Shown here piece after piece: positions 13,749 through 16,146 of a stretch of 64,000 nt of DNA (the first letter of the stretch is position 1; each line of letters opens with the position of its first letter). Under the pieces are notes generated by a model that saw nothing but the letters and a program-made list of their open reading frames with translations, was not told where the DNA came from and ran no database searches. A program made the translations under genes and the position numbers. The DNA is from Archaeoglobaceae archaeon (GTDB lineage: Archaea; Halobacteriota; Archaeoglobi; Archaeoglobales; Archaeoglobaceae), in the NCBI GenBank assembly GCA_038734275.1, contig JAVYOO010000002.1, positions 220,911 through 284,910 on the forward strand, in the 5' to 3' direction.

Positions 13749-14603
13749 TCATTTTAAAATATTTGCGAGAAAATTTTTAAAGGTCCCCGGATCAGGAAAA
13801 GCTCTAGCACCAGTTCTCTCCACATTATACGCCCCACAGAAATTCCCAAGTTTTAAACAAACTTCCAATGGCTGATTATTTATGAAACCATACAGAAAGC
13901 CGGCTGAAAAAGCATCCCCGGCGCCAGTTGTATCGACAACTTTGACTTTTAAGGCCTTTTCATAAATTTTTCTGGATTTTGTATAGCAAACGCTTCCTTC
14001 ACCACCAAGCGTGACTATGAGATAATTGACAAATCTAAGAATGTCGTCAACAGAGGCTTTTAGCATTTCAAATTCACTTTTGGACATTATAACCATGTCC
14101 ACAAACTTTAAGAGTTCACAAATTTTTTCGAATCCTATACTTGCGTATAGATACCCGGGATTAAGGATTATAAATCCTCCAAAGTTTTCCATAACGTCTT
14201 TTTGAATTTCAAAACTTAGTTCGCTTGGAAAAGGGTCAACATAGAGATATTCCCCAGATTTTACTTTCACAAAAGGTTTCTCAGCCGCATTTGGCTGAAC
14301 AAAAAAAGTTCTTTCCCCTTTTTTGTCGACAAAAACAAAAACTTTACCCGTAAGCTTGTCTGTGACTTCAGCAAATACTTTGGCTTTTGTGTTTCTAATA
14401 AAGAATTCTGCATCATCGTCTTTTCCAAGGGTGGTAAAAAGAGCTGTATCAACACCCAGAGTTGCCAAGTTGTGCACGACATTAGCTCCAGCTCCTCCGG
14501 GGAATTTAGCCGAATTAAAAATTTTAGCGTGTCCACCAGCTGATGGAAAGACGTCAATGAAATACACGTAGTCGACAAGCGCAGGAGCATGGGCAGAAAT
14601 CAT
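13749..14603 (-). CDS. PfkB-family carbohydrate/nucleoside kinase
   Basis: A 284-residue ribokinase-family enzyme that phosphorylates a sugar, nucleoside or related alcohol with ATP; the substrate is not evident. The glycine-rich N-terminal motif PGGAGANVVHNLATLG and the C-terminal signature VDTTGAGDAFSAGFLYG (catalytic Asp, anion hole) are intact. I set the start at the ATG at 14603, where MISAHAPALVDYV begins the first strand. A longer open frame to 14924 exists, but it would overlap the divergent RHH gene and run through its promoter, and the extra residues have no family match. A TATA-like ATTTAAAT lies about 80 bases upstream. Confidence 0.88.
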   Translation of the reverse strand: MISAHAPALVDYVYFIDVFPSAGGHAKIFNSAKFPGGAGANVVHNLATLGVDTALFTTLGKDDDAEFFIRNTKAKVFAEVTDKLTGKVFVFVDKKGERTFFVQPNAAEKPFVKVKSGEYLYVDPFPSELSFEIQKDVMENFGGFIILNPGYLYASIGFEKICELLKFVDMVIMSKSEFEMLKASVDDILRFVNYLIVTLGGEGSVCYTKSRKIYEKALKVKVVDTTGAGDAFSAGFLYGFINNQPLEVCLKLGNFCGAYNVERTGARAFPDPGTFKNFLANILK

Positions 14604-14695
14604 CGGATACTCATATCTCTTCTTGAATATATCTTCTTCTGTTTCGTATTTTTGGCTTCTATCATAATTGACACCGAAAAATTTAAATATTATAA

Positions 14696-14767
14696 TGTCG
14701 GACAATATACACCAATAAGAGGTCAAGTGGCGGACATCTGGTGGACAAAAGAACCCACCTGTCCGCC
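14696..14767. promoter_or_regulatory. Repeated YGGACA sites and hairpin between pfkB and the cdrS-ftsZ operon
   Basis: Four copies of a YGGACA word occur in 70 bases: CGGACA at 14699-14704 (inside the near-palindrome TGTCGGACA), CGGACA at 14731-14736, TGGACA at 14742-14747, and the inverted TGTCCG at 14760-14765. The second and third are 11 bases apart, one helical turn, and the first is 32 bases before the second, about three turns. GGCGGACA (14729) and TGTCCGCC (ending 14767) also form a long imperfect hairpin with inner arms GGTGG/CCACC. A TATA-like AATTTAAATATT is just upstream at about 14680-14691. This looks like an operator array for a ribbon-helix-helix protein, possibly the CdrS-like one encoded 30 bases downstream. 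Confidence 0.55.
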
Positions 14768-14796
14768 AAAATAAGGCAAATGTTTCCGGTGGAAAA

Positions 14797-14979
14797 ATGC
14801 CTGCAACGAGAAAGATAAGCATAAGGCTAACAGAAGCCCAATACGCCAAGCTTGAAGTATTAGTTGAAATTGGGGAATATACCTCAGTGAGTGAAGCAAT
14901 CAGAGCAGCGATAAAGAAATTCATTGAGGATCACAAGGAGCAGATCGAGAAGGCTTCCCACCTGCGGGAATTTAGTTAA
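14797..14979 (+). CDS. cdrS: Ribbon-helix-helix (CopG-type) regulator, CdrS-like
   Basis: A 60-residue RHH DNA-binding protein: the ribbon strand is [14 protein letters not shown], followed by the two helices with [20 protein letters not shown] dimers bind short repeated DNA words. It sits 24 bases before an FtsZ2-type gene. In haloarchaea the short RHH protein CdrS is encoded next to ftsZ2 and controls cell-division genes, so the same role is likely here; the name is given on family plus position. A GGTGG ribosome-binding-like site is a few bases before the ATG. The upstream region holds repeated YGGACA words that could be its own operator. Confidence 0.85.
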
Positions 14980-15003: not shown

Positions 15004-16146
15004 ATGAAAAGTATAGTTAGTAAAGCCCAACAGTATTTGGAGCAGGATAGGGTTAGAAGAGAGGAGAAAGTTAAGGAAGTGAAGGACTTTTTTGAGAAGC
15101 CGAAAATTTTTGTGGTTGGTTGTGGAGGTTGTGGAAACAATACGATAAACAGGCTTTCGCACATGGAAGATCTCGATGCAACGACTATTGCAATAAATAC
15201 GGATAAACAGCATCTTTTGATGACAAAAGCAGACAAAAGAATCCTGATAGGCAGAAGCCTCACAAGAGGGCTTGGTGCAGGAGGATATCCTGAAGTTGGA
15301 AGAAAGGCTGCAGAACTTGCCCGAGGTGTGCTTGAAGAAATTCTTGCAGATGCAGACATGGTCTTTGTCTGTGCAGGAATGGGTGGTGGAACTGGAACAG
15401 GTTCCGCCCCTGTAGTTGCTGAAATTGCCAAAAAACAGGGAGCGATAGTCGTTGGCTTTGCTCAAACTCCTTTTAAGGTTGAGAGAGCGAGAATTGCAAA
15501 GGCAATTCAGGGATTAAAGGAGCTTAAAGAAAATTGTGACACAGTAGTTGTATTGGATAACAATAAACTTGTCGAATACTATCCTAACCTGCCAATTGAT
15601 GCCGCCTTTAGCGTTATGGACCAGTTGATAGCCGAAACAATAAAGGGTTTAACCGACACGATTACACGACCGTCACTCGTTAACATTGACTTTGCAGACC
15701 TAAAAGCGATAATGGGGCATGGTGGTGTGGCGGTGATGCTCGTTGGCGAAGCCAAGGCACAGGATAAAGCAGCGACTGTCGTTAAGGATTGCTTGTCGCA
15801 TCCGCTACTCGACGTCGATTACCGCGGAGCAACCGGTGCACTGGTGCACATCTCTGGAGGAAACGATTTAACACTGAAAGAAGCTGAAGAAATAATAAGA
15901 AATCTCACATTCGAGTTGGACGATCAGGCGAATGTAATCTGGGGTGCAAGAATCTCGAAGGAATTTGAGGGCTTTGTGAGAGTCGTCGCCATAATGACGG
16001 GTATAAAGGACAAAATAATCGTTGGCAGTGAAGAATACGAGCACCTTATTGAAGGTCCCAGCGAAAAGAAGACGATAATAAAGGAGATCGGTGTTAAAAA
16101 GGTTGAAAAGAGAGCCTCAAGTAAAGTTTCAATAGACACTCTTTAA
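15004..16146 (+). CDS. ftsZ: Cell division protein FtsZ, FtsZ2 type
   Basis: Tubulin-like GTPase that forms the division ring. The 380-residue protein has the GTP-binding GCGGCGNNT loop (about 39-47), the tubulin signature GGGTGTG (127-133), and the synergy (T7) loop [11 protein letters not shown] that completes the partner's active site. It is closest in wording to haloarchaeal FtsZ2 rather than FtsZ1: [37 protein letters not shown] and [13 protein letters not shown]. FtsZ2 in Haloferax drives constriction. The N-terminal 30 residues are a charged helix and the C-terminal tail ends in a basic segment ([10 protein letters not shown]). It is co-transcribed with the RHH gene upstream and ends in a T-rich terminator. 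Confidence 0.96.

Follow-up and report, generated by a model that had tools for sequence, protein, structure and literature searches.

Tandem dimers of ribbon-helix-helix (RHH) proteins such as P22 Arc and MetJ bind neighbouring palindromic words and repress cooperatively, with the Arc subsites about 11 bp apart and the MetJ boxes 8 bp apart. In archaea, the control of FtsZ levels is poorly known. The closest described counterpart of the locus analysed here is CdrS of Haloferax volcanii and Halobacterium salinarum, likewise a small RHH protein, whose gene immediately precedes ftsZ2 (PMC8406309, PMC7439475). ChIP-seq of CdrS in H. volcanii revealed 18 sites, including those at ftsZ1, dacZ and the hisB/HVO_2987 region; the promoter of cdrS itself is missing from these 18 published sites (PMC8406309). 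The protein seems to activate some of its targets in Haloferax. In Halobacterium, the protein on the cdrS promoter is CdrL (PMC7439475), and post-transcriptional control of cdrS-ftsZ2 was proposed from ribosome profiling (PMC8303175). No description of a cdrS operator or of a cdrS leader structure was found in the literature searched.

The window, i.e., the whole 64-kb stretch of archaeal DNA that was analysed, holds such a gene pair, and we attach a probability of about 0.78 to the reading that the region before it is the autoregulatory operator of cdrS-ftsZ2, on which CdrS would bind phased copies of TGTCNGACA and whose leader hairpin would serve as a second control. To judge from its genes and from the presence of haloarchaea in its phylum, the 1.73-Mb genome around the window probably belongs to the Archaeoglobales. 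The features of the locus are as follows:

13749-14605, minus strand: pfkB-family sugar kinase, divergent neighbour (family name from the preliminary description)
14673-14689, plus strand: core promoter, BRE-like ACCGAAAAA and then the TATA box TTTAAATA at 14682-14689 (sequence)
14696-14704, unstranded: predicted core operator, perfect palindrome TGTCGGACA, exact, centre 14700 (kept before cdrS)
14710-14713, plus strand: CACC, may pair with GGTG at 14788-14791 as an anti-Shine-Dalgarno segment (RNAalifold)
14721-14725, plus strand: GGTCA, possible weak half-site in the 11-bp register (sequence inspection alone)
14728-14736, unstranded: putative second site TGGCGGACA, centred 32 bp past the core, one mismatch; doubles as the left hairpin arm
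14729-14767, plus strand: leader (5' UTR) RNA hairpin, stem 14729-14741 with 14755-14767 (covariation, fold)
14739-14747, unstranded: putative third site TGGTGGACA, weak, two mismatches, centre +43 from the core
14760-14768, unstranded: putative fourth site TGTCCGCCA, the 'inverted' copy, centred 64 bp past the core, one mismatch; doubles as the right hairpin arm
14788-14792, plus strand: Shine-Dalgarno-like GGTGG before cdrS (sequence; conserved in the 12-leader alignment)
14797-14979, plus strand: cdrS-like gene, 60-aa RHH protein (Pfam RHH_1, E 4.4e-7)
15004-16146, plus strand: ftsZ, tubulin homologue, downstream in the operon (TIGR00065, E 2.6e-128)

The 60-aa protein consists of a single RHH domain and falls within the range of about 55-62 residues that characterises CdrS, and a single-sequence structure model of modest confidence placed an N-terminal extended stretch before helices. 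Its gene, which ends at 14979, lies directly upstream of ftsZ, which starts at 15004 and was assigned to the FtsZ2 type from its position after cdrS. Against the NCBIfam CdrS model NF058555, which is a haloarchaeal equivalog model, the protein scored 37.6 bits (E 1.6e-9), below the cut-off of 100 bits; judged by position, fold and DNA word, it is a cdrS-like orthologue and not a member of NF058555. Short conserved C-terminal tails were also observed in CdrS proteins (WAKV in haloarchaea, VSFKV or ISFEM in methanogen-like families) and might serve for contact with a partner, for instance FtsZ2.

The preliminary description had reported four copies of YGGACA, three direct and one inverted, at spacings near whole helical turns, placed right after a TATA-like element and before an RHH gene. 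All of this was recovered: CGGACA lies at 14699-14704 and 14731-14736, TGGACA at 14742-14747 and the inverted TGTCCG at 14760-14765, the direct copies are spaced by 32 and 11 bp, and the array stands between the TATA box and the RHH gene that starts at 14797. YGGACA occurs 36 times on both strands of the 64 kb, and nowhere else in it do four copies fall within 100 bp (here they span 67 bp); the next-densest cluster of four takes 218 bp and shares three of its words with this one. The words are, however, parts of a 9-bp quasi-palindrome, TGTCNGACA, centred at 14700, 14732, 14743 and 14764, and it is this palindrome, rather than YGGACA, that we predict to be the recognition unit. Given a palindromic unit, the 'inverted' copy amounts to one more site in register, and the successive steps of 32, 11 and 21 bp are all close to whole turns of the helix. 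The perfect copy, TGTCGGACA, begins 6 bp past the TATA box, and ACCGAAAAATTTAAATA is nearly letter-conserved across the genus of the window, in which the site at +43 recurs in about half of the promoters.

Part of what would refute the operator proposal, according to the preliminary description, was that these words were not conserved in related species. They are kept: the array is found across the phylum, and exact TGTCGGACA or TGTCCGACA (TGTCSGACA) stands before cdrS in 38/38 promoters read from the same order, which comprise the window, family f1 and two genomes of family f2. In 12 aligned leaders the core site is invariant. The TATA-to-site distance is fixed within the genus, and in other genera and families this distance varies and the sites continue downstream in 11-bp steps. 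When the exact site was taken as the reference and further sites were allowed up to two mismatches, secondary sites were found at 10/11, 21/22, 32/33, 43, 53/54 and 64/65 bp. With weighting by genus, 34.8 of the 40.7 secondary sites were at most 1.6 bp off a whole turn, compared with 4.0 of 11.9 in shuffled sequences. With a single promoter taken from each genus of the order, 45 of 49 pairwise distances were in phase, against a mean of 0.6 and a maximum of 5 in shuffles, and for the 17 promoters from other families the figure was 113 of 128 (mean 0.9, maximum 7). These counts are inflated by relatedness, yet the intervening letters change from one family to another and the spacing does not. 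In those other families, the cdrS-ftsZ arrays peak at exactly 11, 22, 33, 44 and 55 bp. The words thus lie in helical register over the promoter of the RHH gene itself, as in tandem RHH systems.

The array is also specific for cdrS. A search for exact tandem copies, TGTCNGACA-N(1-13)-TGTCNGACA, matched 14 loci among the 148 genomes of the phylum that were searched, and comparison of coordinates placed all 14 in cdrS promoters; the reversed control pattern matched in one of the 148. The combination of TATA, up to 28 bases and TGTCSGACA matched the cdrS promoter alone in each same-order genome in which it matched, and one unrelated match was seen in another family of the phylum (genome G050). 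Where ftsZ had no detected adjacent cdrS, an exact site within 350 nt was present in 0/26 cases and a one-mismatch site in 1/26. In family f21, RHH genes located away from ftsZ had no array. Three copies of TGTCGGACA exist in the 1.73-Mb genome of the window, and the one before cdrS is the only promoter copy; the second is inside a transporter-like gene (L035), and the third (L036) is in a stretch that has no plausible promoter and may be an rRNA region. A wider regulon of exact TGTCGGACA sites was not found in this genome, and its own ftsZ1 promoter has no CdrS-type site. The preliminary description had advised a search before other division genes; CdrS-type sites at such a gene, ftsZ1, were seen in haloarchaea alone.

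In ftsZ1 promoters from 10 haloarchaeal genomes, two GTCWGAC-like words, some with one mismatch, are 11 bp apart. Haloferax was represented by H. denitrificans and eight other species in place of H. volcanii. In H. denitrificans, exact GTCWGAC-N4-GTCWGAC is present at two places only, ftsZ1 and the hisB intergenic region, both of which are in Table 1 of the CdrS targets (PMC8406309). The dacZ gene has GTCAGAC at about -47 in 9/9 Haloferax species, and -47 is also the reported distance. The ChIP-bound promoters of ftsZ1, hisB and dacZ therefore all carry a GTCWGAC-like word, and the word that the window carries is very probably that of CdrS, a comparison that rests on target promoters and not on the published motif logo. 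Seven more tandem CdrS-like sites with one mismatch were seen in H. denitrificans (L191-L197), several of them intergenic, and these may be additional CdrS targets.

At the haloarchaeal cdrS promoters the word differs, since GTAAGAC-N4-GTCTTAC takes the place of TGTCNGACA (19/23 with at most one mismatch, in haloarchaea other than Haloferax, which stand in for that genus). These promoters (L057-L078) keep the 11-bp step and have further copies of the word before the TATA box and beside the start codon. The absence of the cdrS promoter from the reported Haloferax CdrS sites would follow from this change of word, which also suggests that CdrL took over the cdrS-promoter site in haloarchaea. The word changed (GTAAGAC/GTCTTAC) in the lineage in which the extra regulator CdrL appeared, which suggests an old self-regulating cdrS loop that would have been rewired there.

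For the species of the window, we infer that CdrS would bind the array and repress its own operon. Dimers of the 60-residue protein would settle on the 9-bp palindromes on one face of the DNA at whole-turn steps, from the perfect copy past the TATA box to those along the untranslated leader. Bound CdrS would keep the transcription machinery from assembling or interfere with its assembly, and the levels of CdrS and FtsZ2 would be held by negative feedback. The sign of this effect is taken from the position of the site. As a rule, binding at or downstream of the TATA box represses and binding upstream of it activates (PMC8406309), and the perfect site TGTCGGACA falls between the TATA box and the expected transcription start; therefore, autorepression of cdrS-ftsZ2 is likely.

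The transcript would fold into the hairpin at 14729-14767, probably as a second control at the level of translation or stability. The preliminary description had noted a hairpin before the operon, and the inverted repeat proved real and supported by covariation. Its RNA fold reaches -33.3 kcal/mol (z = -4.2), and across 12 leaders from the genus of the window and a near genus, compensatory changes affect 8/13 stem pairs and 89.7% of cells are paired. Neither the covariation score nor the paired fraction was reached by any of 500 shuffles, and no slid register was comparable. On average, the cdrS leaders of haloarchaea likewise form more stable folds than shuffles do (mean z -2.0, n=13). Taken together with the post-transcriptional control proposed for Halobacterium, on which a conserved leader hairpin could bear (PMC8303175), the stable fold, the covariation and the haloarchaeal folding make leader-level control of cdrS-ftsZ2 plausible. 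A search of Rfam with the leader matched no family. The consensus pairing of CACC with GGTG, predicted by RNAalifold, is kept in 11-12 of the 12 leaders with one-sided changes, and CACC at 14710-14713 is tentatively proposed as an anti-Shine-Dalgarno segment whose presence in the mRNA depends on the transcript start. In the cdrS leader of another genome (L201, G148), a perfect hairpin, AGAAGCTGCTCATGAGCAGCTTCT, whose sequence is unrelated to the operator word, is found between phased sites 33 bp apart.

The overlap of stem and sites raises the alternative that the YGGACA copies at 14731, 14742 and 14760 are parts of the RNA hairpin and not DNA sites, leaving TGTCGGACA at 14696 as the sole operator. 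We consider this unlikely, although of some weight, and it is compatible with the CdrS operator as regards the core site. In the window, none of the downstream copies is perfect and they overlap the stem, which keeps compensatory changes even inside the words, where GGACA becomes GTACA or GCACA together with matching TGTAC or TGTGC; some of their conservation may thus be due to RNA pairing. However, three stem pairs, ACA with TGT, never vary while the outer and inner pairs do, which fits DNA half-sites overlaid on an RNA stem, the centres are in helical phase, and other genera and families have phased sites without the hairpin. Since the inverted repeat is also the conserved leader hairpin, part of the apparent operator words is RNA stem. 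The proposal of an autoregulatory RHH operator made in the preliminary description was supported as to a promoter array that is phylum-wide, tied to cdrS and built of the CdrS-target word, and was revised as to its unit, which is TGTCNGACA, and as to the portion that belongs to the hairpin.

A true phased operator could also be bound by a different protein, a second RHH or a CdrL-like one, with cdrS-ftsZ2 only as its target. The finding of CdrL on the Halobacterium cdrS promoter (PMC7439475) and the Haloferax ChIP data, which lack the cdrS promoter (PMC8406309), speak for it. This is improbable here, as no CdrL homologue was found in the 24 genomes of the same family that were searched, the genome of the window included, the word of the window is identical to that in Haloferax CdrS-bound promoters, and ftsZ genes preceded by cdrS have the sites, whereas those without cdrS lack them.

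The preliminary description had also placed the array between the promoters of cdrS-ftsZ and pfkB. An operator shared with pfkB, which the window genome and several relatives carry in divergent orientation at a distance of about 190 bp, is a decidedly poor prospect. In nine of the relatives tested the gene is divergent, and the upstream region lacks it in L012, L013, L016 and other genera, which retain the site; without exception the site accompanies cdrS, and relative to the TATA box it lies towards cdrS. A role shared with pfkB was thus rejected, the neighbour not being conserved. That TGTCGGACA is a core-promoter or initiator element for the basal transcription machinery, as the constant spacing between it and the TATA box within the genus would allow, is scarcely credible and was rejected, because the TATA-plus-site combination precedes cdrS alone in those same-order genomes that were searched, and elsewhere the distance varies and the site repeats downstream in 11-bp steps.

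The phased array of TGTCNGACA in a 10-11-bp register marks cdrS-ftsZ operons and offers a base-level prediction for the phylum, for which tractable methanogens and haloarchaea could serve as test organisms. Like the haloarchaeal CdrS targets, the putative operator uses the word GTCNGAC, which is doubled there 11 bp apart at ftsZ1 and hisB; unlike those of Haloferax CdrS, which are upstream of the TATA boxes of other genes, its sites lie at the cdrS TATA box and downstream of it, and CdrL is absent from its genome. In being dedicated to a single genomic site before cdrS-ftsZ2, the RHH protein would resemble Halobacterium CdrL, which differs in carrying a zinc ribbon and in being restricted to halophiles. 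The neighbouring palindromic words for tandem RHH dimers recall the Arc and MetJ operators, although these are of bacteria or phage and have no leader hairpin. Similar to ParR-parC of plasmid R1 and its relatives, an RHH protein is combined with phased 10-11-bp repeats by the promoter of an operon that has a filament-forming partner, and with autoregulation, which is proposed here (PMC9426499). The partner is, however, the tubulin-like FtsZ and not the actin-like ParM, and the locus is chromosomal; in the absence of ParM, a ParMRC partition system was rejected. By analogy, CdrS filaments on the single array of each genome, coupled to FtsZ2, might form a centromere-like site tying a chromosome locus to the division ring, which we regard as a very long shot. 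SegB of Sulfolobales is likewise an archaeal cell-cycle RHH protein with palindromic sites at its own promoter, before segAB, whereas its word is TCTAGASTCTAGA and its sites are many across the chromosome (PMC12284271).
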